A DNA stretch of 64,000 nucleotides. It comes from Antedon mediterranea (Eukaryota; Echinodermata; Crinoidea; Comatulida; Antedonidae). The notes below the pieces were generated by a model. It was not told where the DNA came from. It saw only the letters and a program-made list of their open reading frames with translations, and ran no database searches. Shown here in pieces: positions 12,694-63,917 of this stretch (position 1 is the stretch's first letter; each line of letters begins with the position of its first letter). Made by a program: the position numbers and the translations under genes. The stretch covers positions 7,817,001 through 7,881,000 of the forward strand of contig NC_092674.1 in assembly GCF_964355755.1 (NCBI RefSeq), given 5' to 3'.

Positions 12694-15600
12694 TTAAACA
12701 TTGACATATTCTTGATAATTCTGCAGGTAACATTTTGCTGCATCGTAGCAAAAGTTGTATTGAACCTACAAGTAAAACAGTCAATAAAATAATATAAGTA
12801 TGATATGTATGTGTAATTAGGCTTAAGTATAATAAGTATAGTATCGTATAATAACGTATGCAACAAATGTCTATGACTGAAAACAAATAATTTAAATACT
12901 TAACTGTAGACTTACTCGTGTTCGTGTAAGTATTTAACGAGGCTTGGTTGGTTATGAATTTGTTAAACTTAACTCAAAATATTGATAAAGGGAGTACAAA
13001 TCTCATGGAAGCAACCATTAAAACAGAAATACTCCGAAGCTATATCCTATCAATGTGAATCTTATCTTATCTAGGTGATCTTGGCGCTGATGAATGACGA
13101 TGGTGATACTAATAATGTATTATCTACAAGTTTATGACAATATTTAATAATAATTACAATACCTTAGTTTTCACCATAGTAGGACAGGTTGAACGCAGTG
13201 TTTTAAGTGTTTGGAATACATCCACCACCTTGTCATCTCTCATTTTCCCAATCATTGAATGAACTAGGCAGAATAATCCAGATCTGCAAACTCCATCCCT
13301 AATAGACAAAAAAAGCATTAATACAATGAAGCTAATTCTTCATGTAATTCGTTTTATTAAAAATATAAATATGGTTTGGTATGGTTGATAAAAATATCGT
13401 ACGCCATACAACCTAATAATTTAAAAGATGGTACGTGTAATAATCCTAAATGAATTTTTACATTCTTAAATTAAATTGACATTTCAATGTTGTAAAAACA
13501 TTTTTTTATTAAAAAATTATATTTTTGTCATTGAAACATTATATACTAAGATATCGAACTTACGCAATACAAACATAGTGAGTTTTTTAAATTTTGTTTG
13601 ATAAGCTCCAAATGGTTAGCCTAATTTATGTTAGTTCAATAATATCTTCTTTAAAACGAAACAGCTAATAAGGAAACATAATGACAATAATGTATTCTTA
13701 CAGACAGTGCACGATGGTTGGCTTGTTACTAGAAACAACGCCCTCTCCAATGTTTGTAATGAACCGCACAAACTGATCCACTTTGGGAACGGTCTTTCCG
13801 TTTGGCCATTGCCGGAACTCAAAGTGAGCAAATTCCCGTACGTTGTTTTCCTTAAAGACGAAACATAGCAATAGACTTAAAATTCAAGAAATGTTATTTT
13901 TCTACTTTGAAATGGAAATTTGTTTTGCTAGGCATAATTAAGACAATAAAACAACAAAGAAAAACTGTTTCAAAAACTTTAAAAAATGCAGATTTTAAAA
14001 ATGCCATAGGCCCTGTAAAATACTGTTCAATTCAAAAGTAAAATTACAGCAAAGAGTTATCTTCGAACGTTAGAATTGTACATATTAATGATATTTACAA
14101 CAAAAGACTTCCTAGTTCTACATAGATTATCATATAACAATATTCATATAAACTTCCTTATATTTATTGTTCTATAGTAATACCTTTACTAGACATAACA
14201 TTTATTCTATTCTTCGTATTGTTTTAATTACTGTAGAAATTACATCAATCTGTAATAATAATCAACAAAAGGTTACCTTTTCTAATGATATTTTTCTTTC
14301 GATCATAAAGTCATTCTTCATTGCAGATTTTACAGTGACAATATATTTCCCGAATTTCATTGGTTGTTTTATTTGCTTGGGAATGTACGCGCCACAACTT
14401 CTGTCCATGTCATTCAGCTGCACAATGACGTCAGATTTATAGTCAAACACCAAACGCCAGAAATCGTCGGTAGTATTTGCTGGGTCAGCCAAGGGAGCCT
14501 GTGTCACAATGTACGCGTTGCGCTTCTTGTAAACCTAGACATAGAAATAGAAAACAACACTCTACCTTTGCAACAACACAAGATATACAATGTTTATATT
14601 GCAATAACCATAACCATATCGTGTTTTATGGAAAAATTGAAGCATATTAACTGCAAAAAAAAGACGGCAAGGGGGTGGGGGTTGTTAGAGAAAAACTACA
14701 CCATTGATATCAAGACAATGATGTATTTGTTTGTTATGTAATAATATGTAAACTTGTAATTGTTTGTGTTAAAAAAATTAAATATCCTTACGTCACAGAA
14801 GGATGCATTTATATAATCAGTACCACGATCGGATTGTGACATCAATATCGGACGAGCTTTATTGACTGCAAAAAATAAAAAATTATATTAATTTGAATTA
14901 TTCCATCCAATCCAATAATTGCAACGCGATAAAGCTAATTTTTCCAGCAGAAAGAAGTAATTTATGAGTTATTAATAGGCCAGCAACAGCAAAACTACTA
15001 CTACAAAAAAAATTATGACGAGGCCTACTATGTTTTTAAGTGACTAGATTTAGATGCTAGTTTTAGTAAGGCCTTGTTTATACTGAGCATAACTCGATTA
15101 AAATATGTTTTCTTTTTGTAGTAGACACAGGCATCAGAACTTACGTGGTACTACGTCATCGAATCTATTTTTAAAAACATTCTCTGGTAGTCTAGCATGT
15201 GACGTAAGATCATCAACAGGAAGTGGAAACAAACAGTTCAAAGTCTAAATAAACAAAAAGTGTTGAAAGGGAGTTTCAAACTGGGGAAAGATTTTCTTTT
15301 AGAGAATAAGTGAAGCAAACGTGTTTTTAAAGATGTCACAAAAAAACATGAAAAATGCCTGAATAGGTTATTTTGTTGTTTAATAAAATCACTTCCGTAG
15401 ACTAAAAACAAACAAAAAATATTTTCACTTATAAATTAATTAATAAAAATGGTTTAAATCAACAAAAACACGTTGGCTGGCAGCTAATCTGACTTTTTGT
15501 TTTAAAGTTTTTCAGCTAAATACATTTTGTTTTGATCAAATTAAAAGTACTGTGACATTATAATGGCAAAAACAATGTTTAAGAATTATTTTTCAGGGGG

Positions 15601-15787
15601 ACAATACATCTATTATTAAAACAAATGATTGTTAGAAAAAAATGCTTACTTTGAGTTGATAATCAAAATGTGATGGCGTTTGTTGTGTTTGCCGCTGTAT
15701 TTCGTTTTGCAATTCAGTTACAGGAATTACAGTCTCTCCACAAAACAATTCCTCAAGTATAACGGCATAGATAAACTTATATTGTTC
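12694..15787 (-). other. Phosphatase domain D2 of gene 4, probable pseudophosphatase
   Basis: Seven exons encode D2. Recognisable parts are [59 protein letters not shown] and a final exon [20 protein letters not shown] before TAA at 12694-12696. The catalytic Cys and Arg of CX5R are kept, but the general acid Asp of WPD is Asn. In the family, D2 domains commonly lack strong activity and regulate D1. The last exon (12694-12765, 23 codons plus stop) is short but matches the family end (QYxFCY) and has a good acceptor. Confidence 0.85.
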
Positions 15788-18700
15788 CTGTAGATAAAAT
15801 ACATAGTTTAACAATGCAATATTAATGTTTGAAGTGCGAGAAACGGATGCCTAATGCTTGTCGGATGTGGCGCTGAGTGCCAAATAACGACGGGATGCGA
15901 ACAATATTGTAGGTCTGATAACATCTGTAATCTGGAAAAGTAAGGTAATCCAAGATTGTTATATTGTTATAGTAACATAACCGTACCGTAATGTATGTAG
16001 GTCTACACTTTATAGCTTATCGAGTTCACTATTTAAAAAAAAGTAGTATTTGGTAACACAGGTCATCCGTATAATCTGGGTACACTTTAGAATACAGATG
16101 AGCTTATAGTCGCGTGCAAACGCGACTCTATCTCACTATGTCGGTCGGTTGGTCGGTCGGTAAATACTAACTAAAATTTGAGCACGCGACTGCAGTCATG
16201 TATATGGCCTTGTTGTTTATTGAAGTTTCTGATTAAGCCAAAATAAACAAAATGTTTGTGTGTGTGTGTTATTGTAACTTTTCTTAATTGTGTTCATTTC
16301 TATGGTGCCAGTTATGGGTTCAACTTCACGTTCAACAAAAGGAAACAATAGATCAACTGATTTACGTCTAACCTCTGTTTGAACCATTTGGATACGTTTC
16401 TGCCTCATACTTCGTACAAAATTAAACACGTCCACTTTGCCTTGGTCCTTCGACATATCCAACATGGCGGCTATAGCGATTACAGTTCCAGTCCTACCAG
16501 CTCCCGCACTAACCGATTTTAAATATAATAATACAAAAATAATAATTACAAATTGTTTTGTTAGTCTCAACACATTTCTTTTTTTTCAATATATGTCTTT
16601 CCTTAACGTACAAAAAGGTATTGTGCTTAGAAAAATATCTAAATGTTTTTGGATACAATCAATTAACTAATCAACAATATTGAAAACGAAGATAAACTTT
16701 ATCAAATTACCTGCAATGTACAATAACTGGTCCACTACTAGACACTTTCTGCTGAGTTTTTCTAAATGTTTGGATAAAGTCGATTAACTGCGGAACGGCG
16801 TTGGAAACACTCTTGTCAGGCCATTCAGTAAAGTGATACTGGTATACAACGTTATAGATACTGTCTTCATCCCCTACCTATTAAAACAAAATTATTAAAA
16901 GTAGTCACAGCAGTAACTTCATTTGTTTTCCTCTTCCTGTTTTCAATTCACAGAATAAATGTAGAATTGAACTTGTGTCTGTACAACCCACTTAATTTAG
17001 TGTATAATTTGAATGAACGGAATGAACAAGTCATAAATTTAATATAAACCAATGCGGTCATTCTAAAACATATAAGCTCTTTCAAAGTATCTATATATAA
17101 ATTCACGTAAGGGCAAAATTCGGTAAATCGCGCCTTACTTCTAGAATGTTTACTCGATGGTATATAAAGTTGGTTCGTACTTTCGATACTGATTTTAACC
17201 ACCTGATGTAACCATGTTTACTAATGAAATGGAGTTCGATAATTAGTTATTGACGATTAAAACGAATTTAGGTTCAACGATTTGCCCCAAATAGGGGTGT
17301 TTTCCGATCGTGGTATACACTGTCCAATGCATGTCTATCTTGAAAAATACCCGCATACAATAATACGAGGATGCTTCGCATTTTCCTATCTCCTCCTACG
17401 ATAATTGTTTTTAATGGATGAAAACCGGTTGAACAGCTCGAGTACAGCATCATAATGTTGAAGACAGACCTATTTTCTTAAAAAAATACTATTTTGATAG
17501 ATTTGATATACATTTATACAAATGTATTGATTTCCGATGAATGGAACATTCCAATAATAACTCTTTGCTTTAACACAAGTACCACCAGCTGTAGGTAAAT
17601 TTATTGGCCCTTGGGGAATTAACCTAAAACGTATATATAGATATAGTATTGCAATAAATACGTATTAACATTTGTGGTCGCCATTGAATTTACTGTGAGT
17701 GTGGGTACTGTTAGATGTATAACACAATCATGTACAAATAAACGTATTACTGTGAGAGTAGGCCCTACTGTTATATAGAACGTACAATATTCAAATAAAC
17801 TGTAGTACTGACAGTTGCTTCTCAACGTTTGTATTAATTAATAATTACAAAGAATATAAACGTTGTAGTGGTACGTGTATCGTTACATGTACTACCGTAT
17901 TCTATTTCAATCGACTATGACAGTGACAGTTTTAACAATAAAGTATTAAGTCGCAAATGTGTTACTGTATCAAGTGGTATATTATTTATAGGCCTGTGAG
18001 TAGGCCCTACTGTTATACAAAACGTACAATATACAAATAAACTGTACTACTGACAGTTGCTTCTCAATGTTTGTATTAATTAATAATTACAAAGAATATA
18101 AACGTTGTAGTGGTACGTGTATCGTTACATGTACTATGCTATTTCAATGGACTATAACAGTGACAGTTTTAACAAAGTATTAAATCGCAAATGTGTTACT
18201 GTATCAAGTGGTATATTATTTATAGGCCTATCAAACATGAAAAACATATTTCGTTACTGAGTAGATAAAGAATATATTAAAACATTGTTCTTCTTTGTAC
18301 CCATATCCTCTTCCCCATCCCTCAACCCTAATGTTACACACAAAACACAAATTGGGTTTGTTTAAATGAGTCCAAATAACAAATTTGGACTCATTTTGTG
18401 ACAAGTTTCTCTTTCGGAAGTAATTTCCAGTGTGCTAATTTCAGTTTAATACATAAATCATCGTGTCTATTTATTCGTTTCTGTAAACAATAATAACTAT
18501 TATTATCCTGCAGTACGTACATTAAAAAAAAGCATTTTTTTACGCTGAAATTACTGTGTATTCGAGAACCATCTGTGGGCACGACCTAGATGGTACGCGA
18601 GCGAAGCGAGCGTACCATCTAGTACACACAATTGTAAGTATAATTATAGACAAAGATAATGATGAAACAGGATAAGGACCTAACTTAACTCATAATATAC

Positions 18701-21700
18701 CTTTTGAACTTGAAAAGTTCGGATGACATAATGACCGTAGTTGGTTTCACGTGCATTTGTAACAGATATACCTGCGTATTCCTGTCTATTATTTAAATCG
18801 GGCCAGTATTGTTCGCATTTTTTCTGAAAACAGATAAAAAACATTAATCAAATCATGGACCATGAACGTAATTGTAGGTCTAGCCATTTTTTTGTACTGG
18901 AGAATTCCACAAATTGACTGACTGAAATCAATCAACTCAATATTACTAATGCATACACATTTAGGTCATGTTTCCTACATTTTTCTCTATAACACAATCG
19001 CACAGTCATAATTACCCGTTTTCCCTCAACAAGATTCGTAACAACGACAATAACGCTAGATTTTTCTTTCCAGATCATTCTCCACATATCGTTCACTGAA
19101 GCAACATTCGGTCCTGAAAAATGGTGAATAAATAATATAAGTATCCTGTCTTATCAGGAAAGAGTGCGATTTCTTACCAAACGATTAGTTTTGTATAAGG
19201 TTAGATGTTGGCTATTAATTTGCGGTAAAATAAAATGTAATTCAGCAAAATAAAATGTAATTCAGCAAAATAATTTTTACCTTGACATGCGATGAATTCA
19301 TGCGGTATTGTATATCCCTGAAAAAAAGTTGTAAAACTACATTACATGCGATTGCATGACAAAATGTTAACTAATAACATACATTTAGGCCTACTATAAC
19401 TTAGCGATTACTAGCGACTAACAGATTAATATAATATTAATCTCATTCAAACGGCAACTGACGAGAAATGACTTAATGAATCTATGAATGTATTATAAAT
19501 GGCGATGGTTATTTTATTTAGTAAAATGTGTTTTCGACTGCAATTTTTTTTTGCTTCTAGTATGCGTAACCATGTCTCAATTTTAGTAGCCTAACTATTA
19601 CTTTTTAAAACTTACATCCAGATATGAAGCATTGATGTAGTCAGATCCCGGAACATTGTCAATCTTGTCAAGAACCACACGGGTATTGTCATCTGAAATT
19701 TAAATATTATAATCATTATAGTTGTAACTAAAATTGTAAGTTGAAGTTTAGCTGATAAAAAGAATAACAAATTAACACCATTACGTCATTACGTCATAAA
19801 TCTATACGTTTCTGCAGACCTTAATAATGATAGTGAACATGTTTGTGAAACTTACATGGTATTACGTTTGCATAGCGATTCTTTTTTTTATTTACTGAAG
19901 ATTTTGCGACTGTGCTCGGAAACAGGGGCTTGTTGCCAAGATCCTTCAGATAAAAGAACAATAAAATGGTGTATTATAGTGTTATGTAGTATTATATTAT
20001 CATCACAAGAATCAGACCACATGCATTCATACAAAAATACAATATTAAATGACCAAGTACAGTAAACATGACAAAGCTTAGTTCTAACTAGGACGAAATG
20101 CAATGACATAAGCGCAAGTGAGTTGACCAATCATAGTTGGCAGTTCAGATGATCCATCGCGTCGGGATTGGTCAAGATGAGCTTGCGCTGTACTTATTAC
20201 GAACCTCAAACTCTTTCTCAAAGCCACTTTCGAAACTTAATTGACGCTTCATCACATAGTCATGTAGTTTGGATAACTCAATGGGTTTGTACTCTTGGTT
20301 GTTCAACTGTGTGTTACCATACACTGGTTCCTGATCAATTTCAGTATCAGGCTGATATTCGGATTCAGACTCGACCTCGTCGTCAGTGTGTACTTGTTCT
20401 TTTGAAAAGTTTTCGACACCCCTCAATTCACCAGGGGCACCCTTCACTTCGTCATAGGCACTGTCTGTAAACACAAAACTTCAATTCAATTATTTTGTAA
20501 AATTTAATCGACCGGTACTTGTAAATCATAATACTACCAACAAGTATCACTCGCCAATGAGTACGGTACCTTTTTTACCCTATGATATTAGTATCTTACC
20601 TCCTATATCTTGTTCTTGTATAATTTGACGAGAGACATGACCACTAGTGGACACACAAGCACCGGATACACCACCAGCACTTTTATAACTTCTACGTCTA
20701 ATTTAAAGGAACAACATGTATGTGCATATTAAAGAAAGCGAGGTATTCTCCAAATAAAAAATAATCCCACTCAAGAATATTACTGGAAAGTATTCTAAAA
20801 CTTATTATAAAGTACAATTACGTAAGAGTAGGGAAAACCTCTGACCACAAAATAGTGATAAAAACCATTACAGGATTGGATTATAACAGACTATAAGAGC
20901 AACAAAAATGTCAATTACCGCTTAATTACAATCAACACCAGGAGAAGTATCACAAGCACTGGAATCAGGCATCCAATTATCACACCTATTGGAGCTCTAG
21001 AACCTTAAAATAAATAAGTATTGTGTAATTATTTAGTAATTTATTAAGTAAGTTGTTGGGAGAAGGGAGACATTTTACGTATAGTATAAGTATTATATTC
21101 TTTACTTAATCCAAAACGAGAATATAAATCAAGTGCGATATGTTTATAACATTGCTTACCCTGACTTCCAGATTCACAATCTGTCCCAAGCATAACTGCC
21201 GTTGTGTCAGATGTTCCTTCAACTTTTAAATATGACGCTAGTACTGTGAATGTATATTCTATACATAATTCAATTCCGTCAAAAAAAACTTCAGTTTCGT
21301 TAGTATTTCCTTGCTGAAATATTCCACCTGACAGTTTATAATGGTAAGTCAGCTGATAATCTGGGATGTCACATGTAGAAGTTTTCCACTTCATATGTAA
21401 ATGTGTTTCATTCGAGAATGGATTACTTTCTACCGATGGCTCTATTATAGAAACAGAGAATAAATAGACTATTGAACATAATTCGATTATTGAACATATA
21501 TATCTAATATAAATATCTTTAGAATAACAATACTGCAGTTCTCGTATAAGGACTCATTTTAACTCTATCTCTTTTATTATTTGTATTGATGTTGTACTAA
21601 ACCAGCCTAAATAGTTTATTGAATTGCTAACAATTACCTGATGGTGCTGTCTGTACCGTTATGTTCTCTCCCCAATTACCAGCAATCTCCATATTATTAA

Positions 21701-24700
21701 CAACTCGAGCGTTTATGATATAACCAGTACAACTTGATAATCCTGATAGTGTAACTTCTAAATGAGAGCTACTTGTTGTATTAACTACATCTTGTATATT
21801 TCCATTTATGTCATAGTATTGTACTTGATATCGAAGAATAGAATTACACTGGATTCGATCATAATCAGTAGAAACAGGCTGAAAATAAAATAAGAATAAT
21901 GTATGTCTTGTTTTAACAATTTTGTTCATTATTAAAAGGTAAACACCTACTTTAACAGAAATATGGCAGATAGATACAGATGAAAGCAATCTGTCTTTTA
22001 GAATCCACAAGCATCTAAATTTAACTCTGTCGATAAAATTCCAAATTAAATTATAATAAACATTTGCGCAAATATTTATGATTAATCAATTTATTAGTCG
22101 AGAAATATAAACTAGTTTCTCAATACAAGACGATTAAAAATTGACGAATACTCGGCATTTTCTCTGTGTTAAGGGATAGCTATACTGCTGGTGTCGTTTG
22201 TTTATCGTTAACCAGAATAAAAGTATATAGGCCTAACCATATTATAAATTGTATTGCTTTTTTCGATAAGATTGCCTAAAGAAAAAAAGTTTTATTTTGT
22301 TAACAAGTTATTTTGCAAACTTGTGATTACAAAATGTGATATATTATTTTAATCTTAAACGATAGCATGTTTAATATGTCTACAATAATATTAACGACAT
22401 TTTCAGAAGAAATGCATCAAAGAATACATTTAGGAAAACCTAGTGAAAGCTCTTACACGGCGTATAATTCAGAGCATAGATTAATACAGCAAACAATCAA
22501 ACCACGATGTACTATTTTTAAGACATGCATTAAGCAGATTTATGACAATAATAATTTGAAATTTACCATTAAACGTATGGAGACTTGGTGATCTTCAATG
22601 TTCTTTAACTCAATCTTGGGTTCTTCTAAAGGTTCTATATTATAGGTAATGCAATACTTGATTAGACTGAGAAACGAAATGGAATGTGTCACTAAAAGTA
22701 ATTATCAAACCCTGTATACAACAATGGAAGAGAGTCACTCCTCCCTAATAAAACAGTGTTCTTTTCTAAAAAATTACACATTGTTCTTCCGTGTATGGAA
22801 GAATAAATTGATATATTATCATAATCTTCCTTACTTTTTATTATATAATTTTAGACAAATTACAAATTATATACAAAATGCCATCATTTTCTTGTTGTAG
22901 TAACAAAGTAACTGGTAAGTTTTTCTTTTTTGGTAGGTTTTAATTTAGATCTCAAATTACTAAATTAGAGCTTACTTGTGCATATGGTGCTTGTTGATCC
23001 AAGTTCACTTCTTGGTCCATCTACCTCAGTACTACCAACCATCCTCGAAAATTGAGAGTAAAATTGAACTTGGGTATTTGGTATGAGATTATCAATGACA
23101 ATAAATACATCATTATCTGGTTCAGTTAGTGATATAAATGAATTCATTTGCGATGATTTATACGAAAGCTTCCGTTTTGTAATTGTTCCTGTTCCATAGT
23201 CTTCGCCGGGAATCCAAGTGACTTCAAACGTTAGAGTAGTTGCTGTCTGGTTTACAGTTGGAGAATCAGAGCGGTATGGTAAGGCTAATTACAAAAAAAA
23301 GACGCACTAAACATAATGTTATTCTGTTTAAAAAAATTTAAATCGAGAAGATATTAAAGAGTTTTTTGTGGAGAATGTTGTCGATAAGCAAATGTGACTG
23401 CATGGTATTAAAAGCTGAGGAAAGCAAATTTTTGCTGACATTTAAAAGCAATTCTAAATGAGAATACCAGAAATCCACTTTACACGTAACTGAAGCTTTA
23501 GTAATATGAATCGTGTACAAATGTACAGTATGCATGTTGGTTCAACATTTAGGATGTTAAATAAATTATATAACCTATAACTTTATGAGTATAACTTTAT
23601 GATATAATGTATTTTGTTACCTATGCTGCAATCAGTTCCTGCCCACGCCTCGTCACATCCATTAGGACAACTTCCATCGCTATTACAATCTGCAGAGTCT
23701 TTGCAGTGACATGGGAAATTACACAAATCACCAAAAAATCCAGGCGGACATGAAATAGGTTCTTTAAAAACAAAGTTAATGGTTTTGTGAAGTGAAACAT
23801 TTAAAAAGGCTCAATTAATGCACGTTATGCAACTCAAAAGTAAAGGAAGAAACATTTTTCTTGAAATATTTTTGTTTCTTTTTTATATTATGTTATTTAA
23901 ACTTTTTGACAAGATTTTTTCATTTGTATTAAAAGAATATTAATTAAGTAATAATTCTATTTCAGATTGTATACCGGACGGTTTATTTTGGATACTGTAC
24001 GCCGTTAAGTGTTATTTTATTGAATGATTTCGACTTCTGTGGAATTTCTATTAACTATTTTATTTTGAACGTTGGAGAAGGAAGAGTAGAATTCAATGTA
24101 ATATCAAAGAATGAAAAACAATGTGTTATGATATGATTGGTGTTTGGTATGTGGTAACTCATATTAAATAATGACAAATTTGGAAATCCAGTAAAACAAA
24201 TTAAGTAAAGATTTTAATAAATATTACTTTGATTTTAATAATTAGTTATTAATTAGGCCTAGATATCACTTTGATGTTACCGCAAGGAATGTATTTAATA
24301 ATATCGTGTTAATGCAGTGTCAATTGCAGTACCTAAACACATGTCTCCCGAGTAATCCTGCAAACATGTTGACCCGGAATTGCATCCTGTTTCATCATTA
24401 CAATCGTTAATGTCACAGTTACATTTTTGCCGACAATCTGCGCCATAGTATCCATCATCACATGCTTGAAATCATAAAATAAAATGGCAGATGAAAATAT
24501 TATCAATAAATAATACTGTAGATTGTGTTTTTTTTTTATGAATCATTTTTCTATATTTATTGTTGATATTTTTAGATATGTTATTGAAATGCTATATTTT
24601 ATCTTAATTTGCTACTCGGTAAGAGGGTAACACAGATGTTTAGCAATGGGGCTTTAGTTTTCTTTTGCGTTTCCTGCAACTTAGTTGTTTGCTGTTGTAT

Positions 24701-27700
24701 CGTTTAGTGTTGTTTACAATAAAGAATAATATACAGACGATACTGGGAATAATATTATATATTCAGAAAATGATAGTTGACCATAATATCACAATACTTT
24801 TAACAAATTAGACCTTTTGATAATATTAATTACGATATTATAAGTATATCAAAGTAACCTAATATTGTATACATTAATAGAAAACAACCAACCGTTTAAC
24901 TATACTATTCTATAATGTTCTCTTGACCTTCGCCTTGGACAAAAACATACTATTACATTCTAACCTGCCTTACAGTCTTTTCCTTTAAAACCATTAATGC
25001 ATGTACAGCCAACTGGATCAGGTGGACATAACAGAGCTCCATTGCAATTTGTTGAACCACACCTATTACTGCACTCATGACCCCAGTAATTTTTATCAAG
25101 ACAACCTTTAAACAAACAGTTTAAGATTTGGTATACAAATGTTGTATATACTAAATGCAAATGCAAATTCAAAAAGTAAGATCTACCAGAAATATTATTG
25201 TTCCATTGAAAATAATAGATAAAATGGGATATTCAAATATATAATATATCATTAAAAGTTGAATAAGTAACGCATACCTTGTTGTTTATCTATCAGTTGC
25301 ACTTATGTGACATGATGTTTGAATGTTGCCGCAATGGTCATAGATTAATATACGTTTTATAATGACGTACATTATTTTCGTATAAACGAATAATTCATCC
25401 AATTGCACTATGCAACATTTCTATAACTGTACTTTTTTTACTATTTTGTTTTGATGAAAATAGTCTTTTTGCAAACAACGTTGAACGAAATAACAGAAGT
25501 AAGCACTTCCGTCTGTATCATCTCTCATTTCTTTACATTATATATGCGCTATATAAGAATGAACTATTTTTATTATTATTCTATAGGACTTTTATTTGAA
25601 CCAACCAGAGAAGGTTTCATGTTCTATCAAATCCTGTTTCAGAATTTATTTATTTTTTACATTTGATATTTATACTGAAAGGCAACCAGCAATTTTTTTA
25701 ACATAAATTAACATCAACCAATCAAAAGTTATAGCAATACTATGCCTATGATTAATCATTTATTTTAACATTAATTATTGTTTGTGGTTACCAGTTTTAC
25801 AAGCATCGCCTTTGAATCCTGCTGGACAAATACAGACACCCGTCTTATCGTCACACACTCCGCCATTATAACATACCGGACAGTTCATTTCACAGTCTGG
25901 AGGATTCCATTTTGGTGAAGGACAAGCTATTAATTAGAATTAGTAAAATAAAATAATAACTTTTACGGTAAATATTTGCAGTGGTTAGGCTAATTTATGG
26001 GGTCAACGTTGTTATATTTATATACTTTGAAAAATATTCAGTATACACAAATTTATTTCTAAATGTTAACTTGATTGACATTGTGCAAGTCTTGAGTTTC
26101 ATCGATCAAATAGTTTACAATTAAATCTAGGCTTTTTATTGTATTCGGTCATTTGTTAAAGAGGTGGATAATTGCTGATTAACGAAAACAATTTCATAAA
26201 AAAAAATCTCTAGACATACCTCTAACAATAAGTCTCATGATACCATGGTTACCATCCGGACTATCACCTGTATAACATTCATATACGCCATCATCTTTTC
26301 TTCGTATGTTTTCAATCATAGCAGACGTATTACCCTTCAGATTGTGTATTTCCTCACCGTAATTATGTCTCCAACGTAAATCGTTAAGATTACCAACTTT
26401 ACTGAGGTTGATAGTGACAGACTCTCCAATGCTAACTGTTATCGTTCTATACTCCATTTCAATAATGGCTGAAGAATGATAATACATATATGAAAAAATA
26501 AAAGGAAAGCCCTCATAAAATCAATATTAAAAGGTGGTCTAAATATGGTACATTTTAACACAATGATTAATTCATTAAACCTTTGTTGGATTAAGCGATT
26601 ACTAAGCCCTGATCCGGGTAAATGTGTACCAAAACACTATATGTATTTAATTATACTATTAATACTAGTGAAAGGCATCTAGAACTGTTAAAATGTATGC
26701 CTGAATTTTATAAAGCAATGGTTCAAGTAGTAGAAGTGTATTTTAACAACATAAGTATGGCATACCCACAAAATGTAAACGAATTAGAAACACAACATTT
26801 GTGGGAAAATGCCTTTATAAAATGTAGTGGGAAAACATACTTCAAAAGTATAGGTTACAGACAGGTTATAAAACAATAAAAGATAAAAATAACATGGACT
26901 AATTTAATACTCCACACTTGTAAAGGCACTTCCCTCGAATTGGAAGAAAATAATTATAAGCAAAGTAAAAGTATTTAACAATTTTTTTATAAGCATTATA
27001 AATGATATATCTATTATTCCATCTTGTCAATCGAAATGGGAAACAGAATTTAGAAATATAAATTTTAAGTAGAAAGAACTATGGTATCAAAAAAGTATAT
27101 AGCATGAATCATGGAATAAAAGTAGATGTAAGCGTAAGCAACGCATGAATAAAATAAAAAAATCTTGATTTGTATGAACATTTCCAGAACGAAATTGAGA
27201 CAGATGAACACAATAATGCTTTTTAATGTAAAAGCATCCAATAAGTATTGACAAAATCAACAACATGATTGTAAAATGATAAATAAATCTAAAGGAAAAT
27301 AACTGGAAAAAATGACAAAAGATTATCAAATCAATCAAGTATTTTTGTTATTCATCATCATAAATATGAGAATAACATCGTGACCTAACTCACCAGAATC
27401 GGATGTCAATACAATTGCTGAATGTGTGATTACACCATTTTTCTTTGCTTCAAATGAAAATACACCAACTCGTTCAACCTGTGTTGGTAAGGAAACACCT
27501 AGCAACGCATGCAGACTGTGTACTCTGTATCTAATTGAGCAACTTGTTGGAAATATTTTATTGCTTGGCATATTTCTTGTTCTTTCATTTTTAGTATTGC
27601 CATCCGTATACGGTCCAGTATCATCCCAAGTCACGTTGTCTTTCCCATCGATATTCTTGTATAATATTCCAACTGACAAATCTCTAATGTCTTTGTCGTC

Positions 27701-28712: not shown

Positions 28713-28920
28713 CTCTCCACTAAAGTCCACACACCTTCTTGTGTACAGAGAATGAGAAGGTGGTTAGTTCTAGCAGTGGTACCTTATTAAGTGTCTGAAA
28801 TTCAATATTCGGTTGGTATGCCGTGGTATACTTAACAAGGTAAAGCAATGAAGTTAACAGTCGCATTAGTAAATCTATTCTTAACAACAACAGACCTATC
28901 TCTCCCAATACAAATTGTTT

Positions 28921-49400: not shown

Positions 49401-52400
49401 ATATTCTATGACATATCTTAATGTGTGTCGTTACCTATGCTGCATTTTGGTCCAGCCCAAGCCTCATGACATCCATTAGTACAACTTCCATCTCGATTAC
49501 AATCCTCAGAGTCTTTGCAGTGACATGGGAAATTACACAAAACACCGAAGAATCCAGGTGAACATGACATAGGTTCTTTGGAAGCAATCATGTGTTTTTA
49601 ATTAGTCTATCAACTATATACGTGTCATCGCAAATTATAATTATTTTAAAAATAATATTGATAATAAATACTACTGCAAAAATATGATGAAAACATTGAT
49701 AATAGTATCTAATTAATCTATACCTAGACATTGGTCACCAGTGTAACCAGATGAACATTCTGATGCTGAATTACATCCTGTTACTCGATTACAGTTGCTA
49801 TTGGCACAGTTACATTTTTGCTGACAATCAGCTCCATAGTATCCATTTCCACAATCTTTGAAAAAAGGTGGCTCTGGTAATAACTATTCATAACATTGTA
49901 ATTAAGAACATCAATGACGAAAACAGTAACAACATATAGAAACAAAAATAAAGAAATAACACGTGGAGCATAAGTGCTGACAGTCCTATCACCATCATAT
50001 TTATATATTACGTGAACAAGAAATAGAGAGCGTCGAAACGTAATGCTCATCAGTTCCGTCCACACCGGTGAACTACATCAGTCGAGCAGCAAAGTGCTCA
50101 TTTAACCGTTAAAACGCTGTTTTTTAACTGCGCAGGTCACTGAGCATCGCCAAGTTATAGTGACTTCCGGTTCGCTTTTCACTTCGCGGCAAGCATTTTG
50201 CATGGAAATACCCTTACAAATCTACTGCAATTTCCACCATCCGGGTTAAATTATATCTTTCTATATTTGGAAATTGTTACTCCTAATATGGATGATTATT
50301 CCCGCCACAAAATTTTGGTATAAATAGCTTAGGAAATGACGACAGAGCTTATTGAAGAAAAAAGTGCAGATGGAGGTGTTCGTTGAGGTAGGCTACATGA
50401 TTTATTTGTTTGGTTTCGTAGGGAATCCGGCACTTTTCTCATCAGCGCGGAACCTTTATAAAAACTTAGTGGTTGGTTATTAGGTTATTAATCTATCTTT
50501 TCTGAAAGTTTAAGCTTGGTTCAGCTTGTGGGACGGATTCAATATCCGTTCAAAGCTGGGGATATATTCTAAGCAGACTCCATCTTGGATTCGTATGTTT
50601 AGTACAGGCCGTGTGGTTGAGTAATTTCAATCCTTCAAAATCACTATGTGCAATCCGTTTTTAAACCAGTTAATATACCAAAATATGTTATTAGTAGCTT
50701 TATTATTTTGGATTTGGTGCTAGTTTGGTAAATATTGCAATATAATTGTAGATTATTTGGTTGTAAAAAAATTTACCCAACTTACTTGTATTTATTATCT
50801 AGGCCTAGGCTAGGCCTAGCCCATTTGCCGGAAACCCAGTGCTATTTGTAGAGGGATAGAGAGGGCTGCAGGCTAGTTTTTAGTGGCATATCGCCGACTT
50901 ATTATAATCAATGTGAAGCCATATTATGGTTAAAATGTTGAATCTATATCCACTGAATTATGGATATATATCGTCGGATATTTAAAGAAAGTCCTAGGCC
51001 TAGACCTTTTAATTTATTTAATTAATTTAGGACTATATTACGGGAAATTCTTTGCCAAAGAAAAGAAAATATGTTGTGGCTGTTGGAGGTTTGTAATGAC
51101 AATAATGTAGCCTAGGCTAGGAAGGACTGTAGGTAGGATGAGGTAATTTGGATGGTCGTACATAGTATGATATTTATATATACAGTATAGTAGTAGTGAT
51201 CATGGCGACACAATTTAGGATGACTAAAGTTGACATTAAAATTATTTAACTATAAATAGCTCATTATTGGTGTTTTTTTCTTTCAGGTTTCTAAGAATAA
51301 ACTATCCGACTTGTGATTCATCTTGATGTACGTAACAGATGTCTTTAAAAATAAAAAATAAAATAAAAATGTTTATTATCGCGATGATTTAACTCAAATA
51401 TTGACATATATAACTTGATATTTTAGCCTGAGCAAGATAGTTTGATAGGCATATTTTACTTCGATGTAAACAAGATATTACATGTTATACTGTATGTAAA
51501 ATACTTTTGTGTAAATAAAATTATTTAATGGTGGTTAATTTATTAACTTGTTAATTTGTTTGTTAGTTATATGATGTTATACTACTTACTGTATTAATTA
51601 TTTAGTTAGTAACCAAAGTGAAGTGGATTCGTGTCAGTTGCAACTTGACTGTAATATGCATATATATAATAATATAAATCGTGGTGAATTTAACGCAGAC
51701 CATGAAAGCGAAAGTGCTCGATACAAAATGTAGAGCCGAATATAAATAAATGAAAGACGCTAGTAAATTACCAACTGAACATTTTATTGCACTACAGGCT
51801 CTTTCATGAGTATGAACTCAATCTTCAGGTGCTTGGCTCTGATTCAGAGCCAAGCACCTGAAGATTGAGTTCATACTCATGAAACAGCCTGTAGTGCAAT
51901 AAAATGTTCAGTTGGTAATTTACTAGCGTCTTTCATTTATTTATATATATAATAATATGTACTTCTTGGATAAAGTTAAAGGAAAATAAGCAATAATAAA
52001 AATTAAATATTTATTTTGCCATAAAGAAAGCAAAAACTAAACATACAGTACTATATGTACAGTAATACCATGGACCTATAGGTCCATGGTAATACATACT
52101 GTAGTATTGAGCACCAGTAGCAGAGACGTCTGGACAATCGAATATAATCGTTATCAGCTGTCTGGGTACCCAAGGCTAGTGCTAGAAAATGGCGAAAATT
52201 CGTGTATTCATTCGCCGTCAGCGAAATGAATCCGGCACTTTTCTCATCAGAAGCAAATCAACAAATCCTTTTATCAGTTTGTTTTGATATATAATCTGGA
52301 TAATATATATTAAAATGGCCTTGGTTCAAGCATGTTTAACGGGTAAAATCAGATTTTTTCCTACCTAGGCCCCTTAGCACTGCGGTACCCTACGCCGTGT

Positions 52401-55400
52401 GGGGGAACCGATCTCGGCAGTATTTCTTAAGTAGCCTATCTTTCGTAAACTCCTTAGTTGAATTTTATTAATATAAATTTAATTGTATGAATATGCTATT
52501 TAAATGTTATTGAACATTTTTTTGCTGCATTTTGTAATTCCGCACTACTTGCTTTATCGCGATTCCAAGATGGCAGCAATTCAAATTTTGATTTGGTAAT
52601 AATTCGTGAGGTCAACCACTTTGCTGCCCGACTGTACATACGGCACCGTCGATCTGAATGAATGTTGGCGCTAATTTGCGCTTTGTGGCTGCACTCTGCC
52701 AAATGAACGTTATCATGAGAAATGAACGTTATCATGAGTAATAAACGTTTTATTTCTTTATATATTAAGTGTATCATCGAACATCTAAATAATACATAAT
52801 ACAACTTATGAAGCAGATGGAAAGTATGGCTACGTATCATAAGTAAAATTGTTTTTGAATATTTTAAGACATTATAACGGATTTATTAATCATGTAAATG
52901 TTCTTCTGATTTCCATAGAAAAACATTATCAATAATAATTATTAACCTGAAGTACAGTCTTTTCCTCCAAAACCATTGATACATGTACAACCAACTGGAT
53001 CAGGTGGACATAAAAGAGATCCTCTGCAATTTCCACTAGAAGAACACACAACATTGCAGTCACGACCCCAATTGTTATTTCCACAACCTATCGCAAATAA
53101 ACACGTTACATAGAATCCATTTAATATCTATTTGTTTACACAGATTTTAGCAGTTTATAATTAGCCCTACCGTTTTTACAAGAATCGCCGTTGAATCCTG
53201 CTGGACAAATACAGACACCCGTCTTATCCTCACACACTCCGCCATTATAACATACCGGACAGTTCATTTCACAGTCTGGAGGATTCCATTTTGGTGAAGG
53301 ACAAGCTAATAGATTTTCATTAAAATATAAAATACATGTAGTTGTATTACTCGACAGGTTTATAAATTATAGAACAGAAAGTAACTTTATGTTCGGCAAA
53401 TCTGAGTAATGGTTTAAATTACAGAAATATAAACTAATATATAATTAAATGTTTTTCAATATCAGAACAAAAATAACAACCGTACTATTATCTGTACTTA
53501 TTTATTTTCTCGCAGGTCTATTTTTATCAACAGAAGAGGAATTCATTATTTGGATCCAGATGAAATTAATTCAAAATATAAACTTTTGGAAACAAAAAAA
53601 TTACAGTATTCGGCATGAAAACCTTTAAACAAATGTGTACAGTAATAACATGCAGTTGTATTACTCGACAGGTTTATAAATTATAGAACAGAAAGTAACT
53701 TTATGTTCGGCAAATCTGAGTAATGGTTTAAATTACAGAAATATAAACTAATATATAATTAAATGTTTTTCAATATCAGAACAAAAATAACAACCGTACT
53801 ATTATCTGTACTTATTTATTTTCTCGCAGGTCTATTTTTATCAACAGAAGAGGAATTCATTATTTGGATCCAGATGAAATTAATTCAAAATATAAACTTT
53901 TGGAAACAAAAAAATTACAGTATTCGGCATGAAAACCTTTAAACAAATGTGTACAGTAATTATAATATTTGTGGTGGTTTGACGTGTTACACTTTTTACA
54001 TAATATTTTGTATTATTCATTTGTAACACTTACTTCTAACAATAAGTCTCATGATACCATGGGTGCCATTCGGGCTATCACCTGTATAACATTCATATAC
54101 GCCATCATCTTTTCTTCGTATGTTTTCAATCACAGCAGACGTATTACCCCTCAGATTGTGTATTTCCTCACCGTAGTTATGTCTCCAACGTAAATCGGTA
54201 AGATCACCACCTTTACTAAGATTGATAGTAACAGACTCTCCAATACCGACCGTTATTGTTCTGTACTCCATTTTCACATTAGCTGTAAAATTATACCAAT
54301 AAGCTAAGTAGTGTAATAGACTGGCTGATGTGTTATAATACCTATTAAAAATATAACATTAAAATGATACCATGCCATTACTCACCAGAAGCGGATGTCA
54401 GAACAATTGCTGAGTTTGTGACTACATCATTTTTCTTAGCTTCGAATGAAAAGACACCAACCCTGTCTGCGGCCTGTAAGCCACTAACACCTAGATATGT
54501 AAAATCTGCGTGTAATCGGTATATAACTTTACTTTCGGTGGGAAATATTTTACCGTCTTGCATATCCTTTGTCGTCGGTCTAGAAGAGGGACCGTTAAAA
54601 TTTCCAGTATCATCCCAAGTCACGTTATCTTTCCCATCAATATGTTTGTATAATACTCCAACTGATAAATCTCTAATGTTTCTGTCGTCTTGAAGTGTGA
54701 ATCCACTAAACCAACCAATACTATTATCGTCAACTAGTGGCGATCTAGAATGAATTGTTATATCTAATGGATCTATAAAAAATAAGATTGTATTAATGTA
54801 TATATTTAAATCTCACGAGGCAGATACAGAATGTCCGCACATACATACATACATGGCAGTCAATTTACGGCAGTTAAATTAATTCTGTAGGTCTAAAAGT
54901 AGACCATTTGCCTCAAAAGGTTTTGCCGAAATAATAGAGTCAGACGGAAATGCAATACATACAATAATTTAGGTAATGACGTATTATTATATCACAGTTC
55001 TACTTAACCGATGCTAATAATAATAGGACTATTTACAACAGATAGTTCATTTATCACATTGACAATGTGACACCCACTCCGTCTGGTATAGAGCGTATTT
55101 CAATCAGGGTGGGTTATAAAATAATAACAGCTTTACCGTTTCAGTTTTTATAAGACAGAGCATGGTGCGAACCGTCCCACGAAATTATTGTTTTCATACA
55201 CAAACACTTCAACAAGAATAACATTTGTATTACAAAGACTATTTTAATGAATACAATTAATTAGAACCATGAGTAAATAGTGAACAAGATAATATCTATA
55301 TTCTATATTATATACAATTATAATAATATGCCTGTAAAATTATAAAACACTACCTGCGAATCCAAAATGGAACGTCAAAGATAAAGCTATAACCAGCCGA

Positions 55401-55429
55401 AACAAGATTGGTAAACGTTCAGTCAACAT
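46391..55429 (-). CDS. Receptor gene 2: Tie-like ectodomain, ITAM tail truncated by insertion
   Basis: Thirteen exons, 793 residues, phases consistent: 55354-55429 (signal, MLTERLPILFRLVIALSLTF), 54386-54772 (domain A), 54034-54282 (Ig-like), 53171-53305, 52947-53087, 49724-49855, 49435-49575 (EGF1-4), 48500-48808 (FN3), 48042-48109 (linker), 47412-47652 and 46984-47286 (FN3), 46700-46778 (TM, identical in the readable core to gene 3), 46391-46511 (tail). The tail encodes two DVDK units and IDTDYQSLSK, then runs into the inserted element and stops after GQQ at 46391. Only the first YxxL of the ITAM remains. All exons upstream are open, so this is either a recent loss or a functional variant with a half ITAM. 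The 3-kb intron between EGF2 and EGF3 holds a 2.56-kb TIR element. Confidence 0.9.
51741..51945. repeat. Near-perfect 205-bp palindrome
   Basis: Two 102-base arms around a central T at 51843 are reverse complements. The one mismatch I found is CTCTTTCATG in the left arm against the complement of CATGAAACAG in the right. It would form a long hairpin. It lies inside the 2556-bp element. Confidence 0.92.
51854..51897 (+). ncRNA. Hammerhead-ribozyme-like motif in the palindrome arm
   Basis: In order: GCAC (stem I), CTGAAGA (core CUGANGA), TGAGT/ACTCA with loop TCAT (stem II), GAAA (core), CAG-C-CTG (very short stem III), TA (UH cleavage position, after 51893), GTGC (pairs with GCAC). All core elements are in the right order. 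Weak points are a T-T mismatch where stem II normally closes with G-C, and a minimal stem III. Hammerhead motifs with short stem III are known from Penelope-like retroelements, which this arm may derive from. Confidence 0.5.
52066..52091. repeat. Perfect 26-bp palindrome
   Basis: TACCATGGACCTA is followed directly by TAGGTCCATGGTA. It lies inside the 2556-bp element. Flanking sequence continues an imperfect symmetry. Confidence 0.9.
53341..53960. repeat. Perfect tandem duplication, 314-bp period
   Basis: The sequence from GTTGTATTACTCGACAGG at 53341 reappears at 53655, and I found no difference over ~306 bases, ending GTGTACAGTAAT. It lies in the gene 2 intron between Ig-like and EGF1 exons. 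Confidence 0.93.
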
Positions 55430-59527: not shown

Positions 59528-59744
59528 TCAATGATTACTATAAACATGATCCTGTACAGAATCAGACTCGGAGTTTGCATAAATGAATTCAGGCGGACAC
59601 GTAGTAACAGTAAGCTCAATATCTTCATATACACTTTGTTCATATTTTTCCGACAAACTGTGATAATCAGTATCTATTGTGCATACATTTTTTTGAACAG
59701 TAGAGGATTCACCAGCGTCTTTTTCTGAATCTATACGTCTACAT
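59528..59744 (-). other. Cytoplasmic exon of gene 1 with ITAM-like motif
   Basis: It begins on the split Arg codon as in genes 2-4. It has YHSL, eight residues, then YEDI, with Asp at -3 and -1 of the first Tyr. The DVDK repeat of genes 2 and 3 is absent. Conservation of motif and spacing against a diverged background argues for selection. Confidence 0.87.
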
Positions 59745-62700
59745 CTAAAATAAACAAAGTGTATGTATATTTATTTCATCAAAGGATCTCCTTTTTTCAG
59801 AATTAATTTGATCGTAACATTCATAAGTCATAGTCATTATCTAAAGTTTTTTCATTTTCAACCACAGTAACAATCTAGGAGTGATACTTTACCGTTTCGA
59901 TATCATCAAGGTGATAACAACTGTGAGAATTATCAAGAGTACTGATGATCCAATTACAACTCCTATTAGTATTACGTAATCTGAAAAACATGAAACATGT
60001 CACATTGTTATAGTTGTCATTTTTAATGTATGTAGAATTCTAGGTCTAAATCTCTTCGACTGTTTTCATTAACAATACTAACATTTTATCTCAATCAATC
60101 TCAATACACACCTAATTGCTCCTTCTGGCTTGGATCACAATTGGTTCCAAACCAAAATTTCTTTGTGTCAGATGTACTGTTATTGTTTACATATGATGCA
60201 AATACTGTGAATGTATATTCTATACTTGGCTCAATTTCTTCACCAAATAATACAAGTTCAGTTTCTGTTGTACTTCCTTGCTGAAAGATTCTACCTGACA
60301 ATTCATAATAGTAGATCAGCTGATAGTCTGTGATTCCACACGTAGGAGATTTCCACTTTATCACAAAATGTGTTCCATTTGTGAATGGCCCAATTTTAAT
60401 CGCTGGTTCTAGCATTACAAAATAGAATATAAAATAAATATTGTAAGCCTAATTTGTTTCTTACAAGGATAGACATAGACATCGCTTTATTCATCCTTAG
60501 ATTTGAATATTACAGTGTTCTTATCTTTCTCTCTTAATAATTATAAAAACAGTATTAAATAAAGACAAAAGAATATAACTAACGAACATATCTTCTATTG
60601 AAAAGGCCAAAAAGGATGGTATTATGTTTATTAGAATAGGGAAGAGTAAACATTCCACTCTTTCGGATTAGGACTGTTATTATTTTAGTTAATGGTCAAC
60701 CAACCTGACGGAGCTGTTTGTATCTTTGTATTTTGTCCCCAATTACCGGCAATATCCATATTATTAATAACTCGAGCGTTTACGACATATTCAGTACAAC
60801 TTGATAATCCTGATAGTTCAACTTCTAATTGAGAACTGTTTGTTGTGTTGACAACATCTTGTGTATTTCCATCAATGTCCGAGTATTGCACTTGATATCG
60901 AAGAATATAGTTACATTGGATGCTATCATAATTACTAGATACAGGCTGAAAATACAACAAAAAAATTCAGGTAAGGTAAAATGGGTATGACAGCTATGAC
61001 ATGGAAACCTGGGGCCGGGGAGAATTGGACGGCCCAAAACAACATGGCGGAAAACAGTGGAAAAAGTGGGAGAAACCCTTAGATGGGAGGACATGTAACG
61101 AATCAAAACTATAACCAACTAGAACATTGCCATTGCAGCCTTATGGCCCACGAGGTCTGAAGAGGTTAGGTAAGGTAAAATATAACCAAAATACAGTAAA
61201 TGACAAATACCGTTGTTTGGATATGATACAGGTAACCGTTAACAATTTTCGATTTAATATTTAAAATCTAAAAAAAAATAGAAAATACTTTGACACCTAG
61301 CTACTACTGAACTACAGGCAATGAATTATTTGCGGACCATTTTAAAAACTATTTACGTCATTAAAACCTAAAACAGCAACATAATGTATACCTTTAGGTG
61401 ACAGAACATTTGCGGAACCTTTGAGAAACCATTTACGTCATGAAAACTATGTAATACTTTCACTGAACATACATAAATACCAATAACGTAATGTATAATG
61501 TTTGAAACATTATAACAAACAAAAATAAATCTATATTAAACAATGTACCTTTACACTCACGATCATCTGATTATCTTCAACGGTTTCTAATTCTATCTCA
61601 GGTTCTTCTAAAGGTTCTATTTCATAATACAAAAAAATCAATTTCAAACAGTAGGTAAGTCGATGTTATAGATTTACGCCCTATTATAGATATAAAATAA
61701 ATGCATTTGGTTAATTTGCTGATCGCAGTAATATAACTAATATACTTTGTATTGTTTTACATGATTTTGGTGTAATAATAGAGTTTACCTAAACAGATTG
61801 TATTTGTTGTTCCAAGTGTACTTCTTGGTCCATCTATCTCAATACCACCAACCACCCTCGAAAATTGAGAGTAGAACTGAACTTGAGTATTTGGGATGAG
61901 ATTATCAATAACAATAAATACATCGTTTTCTGGTTTAACTATAGATGTAAATGAATCCATCTGCGATGATTTATATGAAAGCTTTCGTCTTGTAATTGTT
62001 CCTGTTCCATAGTCTTCACCAGGAATCCAAATGACATCAAATGCTATATTTGTTGCTGTCTGGTTTACAACACTTGGCGGTTCAGAACGATATGGCAATG
62101 CTAATTGTTATAAATACAAAATGTTTTGTAAAAACTGTAAGTTTTAACTAACTAAGTAACTCATTTGAATAGGGTATAGCAGAAAATGCTGATCATGTGT
62201 CATTATGGAGGATCTTGAATATGTCACATATTAACAGATTGTATGTTTTATAATTTAATAGAATTACCACTGGAGTCACATTTGATTACGGGAAAGCATC
62301 AAGTGCTCGACTACAATAGTTGATGCTAATGCTAGTAGTAGGCCTACCAATACCATGCTTGCATCAAGCTACTGCAGTATTATGTTGTATTATGCCTATC
62401 TATCCAAACTGAAAAATACACTTTTTATATTTGTTTATTATCGTTACCTATGCTGCATTCATCTCCCGTCCATGCCTCATGACATCCATTAGGGCAAATT
62501 CCATCTCGATTGCAATTTACAGAATGTTTGCAGTGACATGGATAGTTACACAAAACACCAAAGAATCCGGATGGACAGAACGGCGGTACTATTATAAACA
62601 AAACAGGTACATATAATTTTAAAAACAAAACAGTTTTTTAAATCTTTGGTCCGTAAATACATTTTTTAAATAGATTTTCTTTTAAAAATATGACTATAAA

Positions 62701-63917
62701 ACGTTATTTTTGGGATTTAAAGTAAAAAAAAAAACTATTATGGAGCCATGGTTTTGAATATTGAATAATATTTATATAGTAAGTTAACTTTAGTTTGCAA
62801 AGTGAAGATAAACCAAACAACCTAAATAAATCAGAAATTAAGCGAAATACTTGGCAATATAGAGATAGCAACAGAGGGCGTGCTGTTTATTATTTTGGCC
62901 CATATATTGAATATATATATACAAATAACTCCAGATTTTAATCAGAATTTGTCACCAATACATCAATTGTTCTGACAATCAACAGACATGTCTGGAAGTA
63001 TATACCCATTAACGCCTAACAATTCAGGAAGAAGATTTTGGGCGCAACCGTGCAAACAAACAAACAAAAACAAACAAACAAAAGACACAAAGCAAGTACT
63101 ATAAATTTATACTTTGCTAAGTAACAATTGTGGTTAATTGTGGTACAGTAGTATCATAAAGTGTATACTTTTAGAGTATACAGTACCTTGACAAGTATCA
63201 CCAGTGTATCCATCCAAACGGTTTGACCCGGATGAACATCCTGTGTGTTTATCACAAACACTATCATCACAGTGACATTCTTGGCGACAATCTGCTCCAT
63301 AGTATCCAGCCCCACACACTATAAAACGTAGTTCAATATTATTCCATCACAGATAATATTATGTTTACAGTTTTCACATCTTATTCTATCATTATTTCTT
63401 ATCTTACTTGAGTGAACATGTAATAATCATTACAATAATATTATATTATAATCATATTATAGCAATAATTCTAATACAGTATTAATTATAAACTTTTTAA
63501 ATCTATATATAAATTTACATAGGGGAACATTTTTGTAACAATAACCTGTACTACAATCGTTTCCTCCAAAACCATTGATGCATGTACAACCAACTGGATC
63601 AGGTGGACAAAAAAGTATTCCAGTACAATTCGCACCCTCGCTGCTACACACAGAGTCACATTTACGACCCCAGTTGTTATTTCCACAACCTATCGAAAAT
63701 AAAATACATAAAATAACGTTCAATGTATGTTTATTTGTTAATTACACGTCCACGTATTTTAGCAGTTTATATTTAGGCCTACCGTTTTCACAAGAATCGC
63801 CGTTGAATCCTGCTTGGCAAATACAAACACCCGTTTTATCGTCACACACTCCACCATTATAACATACGGGACAGTCCATTTCACAGTCTGGAGGGTTCCA
63901 CTTTGGCGAGGGACAAG
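59528..63917 (-). CDS. Receptor gene 1: Tie-like ectodomain with ITAM-like tail (5' end outside)
   Basis: Ten exons visible, in phase: 63783-63917, 63546-63689, 63187-63318, 62448-62588 (EGF1-4), 61789-62100 (FN3), 61549-61616 (linker), 60705-60945 and 60112-60408 (FN3), 59893-59980 (TM, VVIGSSVLLIILTVVITLMI), 59528-59744 (tail). Signal peptide, domain A and Ig-like exons must lie right of the window. The tail has TDYHSLSEKYEQSVYEDIEL, an ITAM-like YxxL-x8-YxxI, followed by FIYANSES and HVYSNH (two YxN sites) and TGA. It is the most diverged of the three ITAM-type members yet keeps exactly the same motif spacing. In EGF3 a cysteine present in genes 2-4 is replaced (GSNRLDGYTG), which should break one disulphide. 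Confidence 0.9.
60969..61190 (+). pseudogene. LINE C-terminal fragment with GGTAA tail
   Basis: The frame contains PGRIGRPKTTWRKTVEKVG, LRWEDM, stops, and ALWPTRSEEVR, the C-terminal pattern of RTE-like LINE proteins. It ends in AGGTAAGGTAAAAT, and the same word AGGTAAGGTAAAAT lies at its left edge (60970), perhaps a target duplication. It lies in the gene 1 intron between the linker and second FN3 exons. Confidence 0.6.

Follow-up and report, generated by a model that had tools for sequence, protein, structure and literature searches.

Paired receptors of vertebrates (KIR, LILR, SIRP and Siglec) are encoded by clustered genes, in which matched ectodomains are joined to opposite tails and sequence is exchanged between members. 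They are usually viewed as an immunoreceptor tyrosine-based activation motif (ITAM) set against an immunoreceptor tyrosine-based inhibition motif (ITIM) and the phosphatase that it recruits. Receptors that carry EGF repeats together with an ITAM or ITAM-like tail are also known, namely Draper, CED-1 and MEGF10. Here we describe a cluster of five receptor genes in a 64,000-nucleotide stretch of the genome of the crinoid Antedon mediterranea (NC_092674.1, positions 7,817,001 to 7,881,000; hereafter the window). We consider it probable (about 0.65) that these genes belong to a tandem paired-receptor family, in which single-pass ITAM receptors are set against members with a built-in phosphatase on matched, Tie2-related ectodomains. 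The locus resembles the KIR, LILR, SIRP and Siglec clusters in gene clustering, matched ectodomains, opposite tails and exchange between members; it differs in its Tie-like ectodomain and in that the phosphatase forms part of the opposing receptor. With Draper, CED-1 and MEGF10 the family shares EGF repeats and an ITAM-type tail, from which it differs by its Ig and three FN3 domains, its kinship to receptor protein tyrosine phosphatases (RPTPs) and a tail homologous to an RPTP juxtamembrane exon.

All coding exons found for genes 1–5 lie on the minus strand in head-to-tail order, with transcription running from high to low coordinates (positions without a contig label are those of the window). 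The exon plan common to the five genes consists of a signal exon, an N-terminal domain (N-domain) in one exon, an Ig domain, EGF1–4 in one exon each, FN3-1, FN3-2 in two exons, FN3-3, a transmembrane (TM) exon and a tail. The sequence-only reading had proposed one shared Ig-EGF-FN3-TM plan, with YxxL-x8-YxxI tails in genes 1 and 3, a broken version in gene 2 and a catalytic tyrosine phosphatase with a second domain in gene 4, and each of these points was borne out. The models of genes 1–4, spliced by hand, have GT-AG introns of consistent phase, and in the sequence models of genes 1–3 the TM exon joins the tail exon in phase. Gene 3 (31343..41502) is complete in the spliced model, with 13 exons and an uninterrupted 840 aa, and its ITAM, YQSLSKKYKESEYEGI (YQSL-x8-YEGI), lies at 31445..31492. 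The ITAM of gene 1, YHSLSEKYEQSVYEDI (YHSL-x8-YEDI), lies at 59618..59665; both sets of ITAM coordinates were counted by hand. The window edges remove the 5′ end of gene 1 and the 3′ end of gene 5. Gene 1 is therefore represented by its ten 3′ exons (EGF1–4, three FN3 domains, TM and tail; 59528..63917), with its 5′ exons beyond the window and its N-domain placed at C5:7882306 by gene order. Gene 5 is represented by its 5′ part (the shared flank, signal exon, N-domain, Ig, EGF1 and EGF2; 4479..9859), which runs on to C5:7803148, where a tail with an intact ITAM was assigned to it by gene order.

Gene 4 (minus strand, 12694..28712; supported by the model, Pfam and PDB matches) encodes a receptor tyrosine phosphatase in 28 exons, the last at 12694-12765 with an AG acceptor and a stop. 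The same ectodomain and TM are followed by a juxtamembrane region with a YxNT motif, a first phosphatase domain of catalytic type (D1; exons 15–21, 16373..19943) with KNRY, WPD and HCX5R motifs, and a degenerate second domain (D2; exons 23–28, 12694..15244) with WPN and HCLDGVCRSG. Pfam Y_phosphatase matched gene 4 at 2e-134 in two stretches, and the top PDB matches of D1 were PTPRS, PTPRA and LAR. A catalytic-motif D1 with a degenerate D2 is the arrangement of LAR/PTPRS, PTPRA and CD45; unlike these, the crinoid family has a Tie-like ectodomain, and its paralogues include some with an ITAM in the juxtamembrane exon and some with no D1. No ITAM exon was found inside gene 4. Splicing of ITAM-only genes on to downstream phosphatase exons was not supported, as no phosphatase exon was found in the window outside gene 4 at E<1e-2.

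The Tie-like character of the ectodomain proved to be true homology. At E 0.001, the gene 3 ectodomain matched four PDB sequences, three of TEK and one of an EGF protein, and the TEK match (E 1.8e-33) extended over Ig2-EGF1-3. The order of EGF followed by FN3 is likewise that of Tie2/TEK. In contrast to Tie2/TEK, an N-domain replaces Ig1, there are four EGF domains, the tails are of ITAM or phosphatase type (gene 3 ends in an ITAM and gene 4 in a phosphatase), and no tyrosine kinase domain was seen in the receptor clusters among the matches listed. The Ig domain gave only weak Pfam Ig matches, below the cut-offs. Two versions of the N-domain gave no Pfam match up to E 5, and there was no PDB sequence match at E 0.001. 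We do not propose the N-domain as the fastest module of the window genes, since its nonsynonymous divergence (dN) is the highest in the gene pairs 2/3 and 2/4 but not in 3/4.

The plan of the five genes was thus confirmed, but the five-gene picture was too narrow: there are 30 close loci, some of which join an ITAM to a decaying phosphatase within a single chain. Searching the genome with the FN3-3 exon returned 38 matches, of which 31 were below E 1e-20. As two of those belong to the same locus, 30 loci remain, placed at C5:7.66-8.07 Mb (20), at C5:25.20-25.32 Mb (7) and, one each, on C7, C1 and C17. The C17 member sits on a 20.6 kb contig and is perhaps an allele or an unplaced copy. By their tails, 11 loci are ITAM-only (including gene 2), six have D1 and D2 without ITAM, four have ITAM, D1 and D2, six are D2-only and three are others. 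The latter comprise a locus with a long YDDT/YNN repeat array as its tail, in which no phosphatase exon was seen (L053; C5:25217600-25220700), one that was left unassigned, and one at a contig end that is phosphatase-like by its TM. Relatives on C4 showed neither a phosphatase domain nor an ITAM in the stretches read.

We scored a strict ITAM, defined as Y..[LI]-x6-12-Y..[LI], in the 27 loci of the four main classes. It was found in 10/11 ITAM-only genes, 2/4 genes with ITAM and phosphatase, 0/6 phosphatase genes without ITAM and 0/6 D2-only genes; a relaxed pattern added two ITAM-plus-phosphatase and five D2-only genes and none in the other two classes. In the fetched stretches of the five further phosphatase genes without ITAM, KNRY, WPD and HCX5R were all present, except for the HC motif of h25321, which would lie past the end of its stretch. 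D1 is altered in all four genes that combine ITAM and phosphatase. KNRY is changed to KNQN in two of them, and in the other two the KNRY exon was not found; of the latter, one has a five-residue loss following the active site, whereas the other has WSD for WPD and VHR for VHC at the catalytic Cys position, with an uncertain splice junction. No gene was therefore seen to combine a strict ITAM with a D1 that has the full set of motifs. The six D2-only genes have no D1 exon of their own, and their weak D1 matches fall on D2 exons. These genes (L061-L065 and L070) carry several YxxP motifs upstream of the degenerate D2, which is the design of a receptor pseudophosphatase.

The two receptor types are matched within neighbouring couples. 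Gene 3 is a mosaic by blastn: its 5′ flank, signal exon and N-domain are like those of gene 4 (blocks of 77.6-89%, about 3.4 kb), and its 3′ half is like that of gene 2, in exons and introns alike, at 74.5-88.6%. The module shared by genes 3 and 4 comprises the 5′ flank, presumed promoter and signal exon, at 40906..45087 in gene 3 and 28128..30986 in gene 4 (both on the minus strand). The 5′ flanks from seven genes, with 3.5 to 7.3 kb taken per gene, were compared in 21 pairs; flank and signal exon were shared over 3275 bp by genes 3 and 4, over 2857 bp by gene 5 and its phosphatase neighbour g7784, and over 0-1069 bp in the other 19 pairs. The ITAM gene is the immediate upstream neighbour of the phosphatase gene in each couple. 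Exon identities were read against a background of four between-couple comparisons, which range over 66-92% throughout (N-domain 72-77%, FN1 83-86%), with some g7784 exons read partly. Between gene 5 and g7784, identity is 93% in the signal peptide, 83% in the N-domain, 95% in Ig, 96, 99, 97 and 98% in EGF1–4 and 90% in FN1, after which identity falls near background (FN2a 76%, FN2b 79%, FN3-3 83%). Their match continues through aligned introns and the 5′ flank; no block spans an intron past C5:7806524, where only two exon-sized blocks were found. Genes 3 and 4 are clearly above background in the signal peptide (95% vs 73-77%), the N-domain (84% vs 72-77%) and the 68-nt FN2a (81% vs 66-73%), and by one point in FN1; their remaining exons are within background. 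The juxtamembrane and phosphatase exons of gene 4 and g7784 are 79-100% alike as protein, which is the opposite grouping to that of the couples. In the N-domain tree, genes 3 and 4 (97/90) and gene 5 and g7784 (97/86) form starred pairs, and among the 20 array genes the N-domains of cross-class neighbours are closer than expected, with a value as high in 64 of 5000 permutations. The earlier premise that both types bind similar ligands is strengthened by two adjacent couples that match in 5′ flank, signal peptide and N-domain, one of them over nearly the whole ectodomain as far as FN1.

The ITAM-only tail exon is homologous to the juxtamembrane exon of the genes with ITAM and phosphatase and of the D2-only genes. 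We aligned the 45 nt from the stop of each ITAM-only tail with the juxtamembrane codons of 13 family members; 6 of the 11 tails aligned at scores unreached in 300 shuffles. In gene 3 the alignable stretch lies at 31302..31346 (minus strand; score reached by 0/300 shuffles). In gene 5, 27 of 29 nt agree, in a different frame, with the codons that encode ...EDYKPIELS... in g7984. A distant relative used as an outgroup, at C5:12.03 Mb, is a phosphatase with WPD, KNRY and YTN motifs, in which no ITAM was seen. From these alignments, a receptor phosphatase of the same family is the probable ancestor of the ITAM-only receptors; this direction is favoured because of the relic post-stop codons and the ITAM-less distant phosphatase. 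A joined tree gave six changes, three of them forced by starred branches, and the number of events is left unsettled by the trees.

In the most likely course, an ITAM arose in the juxtamembrane exon of such a phosphatase, D1 decayed, and a frameshift in that exon presumably separated the phosphatase from the receptor. We give about even odds to a wider, stepwise reading, in which the living tails would represent stages of the conversion: a phosphatase alone, an ITAM with a D1 that is losing its motifs (KNRY being changed or not found in 4/4 genes), an ITAM-like tail with just the degenerate D2, and an ITAM alone with relic phosphatase codons past the stop. In this reading, exchange of 5′ flank and ectodomain between neighbours would afterwards have directed the "off" enzyme and the "on" motif at one ligand. 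Receptors with ITAM and phosphatase in one chain may be self-limiting or, with a decayed D1, de facto ITAM receptors.

Signalling through the ITAM would require a partner with tandem SH2 domains, and the genome contains a Syk gene (C6:537616-545400). Its tandem SH2 exons at C6:542-545 kb have SYK/ZAP-70 as their best matches, at E 5e-38 and far above the rest, and a kinase exon a few kb away matches SYK, one two-stretch EGFR entry being at the top of its list. This contrasts with a tabulation of Syk as emerging in vertebrates (PMC8662651, in excerpt); syk-family kinases are also described from Botryllus (PMC12065747, in excerpt). In the proposed mechanism, the ITAM would be phosphorylated by a Src-type kinase and then bound by this Syk, which would produce an activating signal. 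A ligand that clusters ITAM members would attract the phosphatase twin as well, through the N-terminal half common to both; the D1 of the twin would remove phosphate from the clustered ITAMs (or from Syk) and so produce the opposing signal. Matched 5′ flanks and N-terminal domains, presumably a product of sequence exchange, would allow both to be expressed together and to bind the same ligand. The two receptor types would thereby oppose each other. In vertebrates the phosphatase VE-PTP, a separate protein, acts on Tie-2, and Dectin-1 ITAM signalling is permitted by the exclusion of CD45/CD148 (both from the excerpted text of PMC10815196). In contrast to VE-PTP and Tie-2, phosphatase and Tie-like ectodomain are here one protein.

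Other explanations of the same locus have to be weighed. One is a lineage-specific family expansion in which Tie-like receptor phosphatases serve adhesion or development, short-tail copies act as ligand-competing decoys and the ITAM spacing is incidental; we consider this unlikely. The ITAM-only tails do resemble truncations with relic codons, a bare ITAM motif is common, one short-tail copy (L017; C7:9530300-9531000) has a frameshifted ITAM-type tail, and the tail of gene 2 is broken. However, the motif keeps both its place in the exon and its x8 spacing in 10/11 ITAM-only tails; lack of conservation of this spacing in orthologues is what the sequence-only reading had named as evidence against itself, and within the paralogues the spacing is kept. 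The ITAM core is also more constrained than the rest of the exon: in the ten intact tails, the proportions of nonsynonymous (pN) and synonymous (pS) differences are 0.096 and 0.44 for the core, versus 0.25 and 0.33 for the rest of the same stretch. The presence of the Syk gene likewise speaks against incidental motifs. In shuffles of each of five tails, the pattern arose in 0.2-2.2% of cases. Chance as the sole cause of the ITAM was rejected on the basis of core conservation and spacing. Less probable still is that the tails scaffold Grb2-type (YxN) and YxxP-binding SH2 adaptors, the ITAM-like tyrosine pair being SH2 sites rather than a Syk site and the phosphatases acting on the scaffolds. 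YxN motifs in 10/11 ITAM-only and 6/6 phosphatase tails, YxxP in 6/6 D2-only tails and the one tail made of the long YDDT/YNN repeat would suit such a role, and against it stands YxxL-x8-YxxI in 10/11 ITAM-only tails, better conserved than the rest of the exon.

A somewhat stronger candidate, although in our view still a doubtful one, is that these are variable receptors for allorecognition or microbes, in which diversity and shuffling of the N-domain are central and tail polarity is secondary; this would be compatible with the paired-receptor family proposed here. In the 20-gene array, mean cross-class identity is lower for the N-domain than for FN3-3 (0.60 vs 0.71), and the N-domain has been exchanged along with the 5′ flank. 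Allorecognition genes of Botryllus and Hydractinia carry ITIM, hemITAM or ITAM motifs (in the excerpted text of PMC12065747). Positive selection on the N-domain is not supported, however, since the ratio of nonsynonymous to synonymous rates (dN/dS) is 0.35-0.61 in four genes and never above 1. According to the same partial text, Botryllus FF/FcoR and Hydractinia Alr resemble the present family as invertebrate receptor clusters with ITAM/ITIM-type motifs; they differ in having other domains, and the CD45-like phosphatases there are separate proteins and not partners with the same ectodomain.

Several observations weigh against the paired-receptor family and the conversion that we propose. The window is AT-rich, and the bare ITAM pattern occurs in 15/177 of its open reading frames (ORFs) of at least 60 aa. 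The post-stop relic is marginal in two tails (score reached in 10 and 11 of 300 shuffles), and nothing was found in three. The ITAM-only genes do not form one clade in the ectodomain trees, whose resolution is weak. An AlphaFold model of the N-domain from four sequences gave no usable fold (predicted local distance difference test, pLDDT, 39.5). The matching of couples is limited to two ITAM/phosphatase couples and to the N-terminal part: in the 20 array genes, FN3-3 is no closer between cross-class neighbours than by chance (756/5000), and therefore neighbour matching concerns the N-terminal part. The exchange that matched the couples could be neutral gene conversion. Finally, an ITIM-like site is present in 3/6 phosphatase tails (gene 4, with SAYDEV in the juxtamembrane region, h25321 and g7662), so that a SHP route through such sites is possible alongside the built-in enzyme; a gene with tandem SH2 and phosphatase domains that would suit SHP2 lies, by positions only, at C3:14.097-14.104 Mb.

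Gene 2 (minus strand, 46391..55429; 13 exons, 793 aa in the spliced model) keeps an in-frame tail remnant, DTDYQSL, with one YxxL before the stop. Sequence comparison identified an insert of ~796 bp (45607..46402, minus strand; ends approximate) that splits its ITAM exon and is a young, high-copy, TGTC-bearing repeat. Beyond the insert lies the stranded rest of the tail (45478..45606, minus strand), which holds two YxN motifs besides the second half of the ITAM. For a 276-bp segment of the insert, 39 additional matches were scored from 1377 candidates, each of them 98-99% identical, and because of this identity to other genomic copies the loss of the gene 2 ITAM looks recent. A 314-bp direct duplication (99% match) lies at 53334-53960, in the gene 2 intron that separates Ig from EGF1. 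A 12-bp repeat (31534-31573 and 46465-46492) encodes a KDVD linker in the tails of genes 3 and 2, which differ in copy number. Within gene 5, two plus-strand ORFs at 1831-3794 with RVT_1 matches of 2e-4 (below the cut-off) and 2.7e-23 mark a retroelement. Elsewhere in the genome, 10/11 homeobox matches form a Hox-type cluster at C2:7.896-8.206 Mb, all on one strand and apparently in order, including Hox9/10-like and Hox11/13-like homeodomains; no Lox5-type tail was seen in the stretches read. Such a set suits an ambulacrarian (echinoderm or hemichordate). A search of the genome for COX1 found none.

No description of a Tie-like ITAM/RPTP receptor family was found in the literature searched, although a survey of sea urchin phosphatases (PMC3045532) could still hold one. 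The paired-receptor family proposed here would build the phosphatase into the receptor, unlike the scheme in which an ITAM is set against an ITIM and a recruited phosphatase. It may offer a natural experiment, in which a phosphatase and its likely substrate motif are kept matched to one ligand. One gene family would record a possible evolutionary route from one signalling polarity to the other and would provide a testable origin for ITAM receptors outside vertebrates. For a Syk-bearing crinoid genome, these loci would constitute a concrete candidate set of Syk-coupled recognition receptors.

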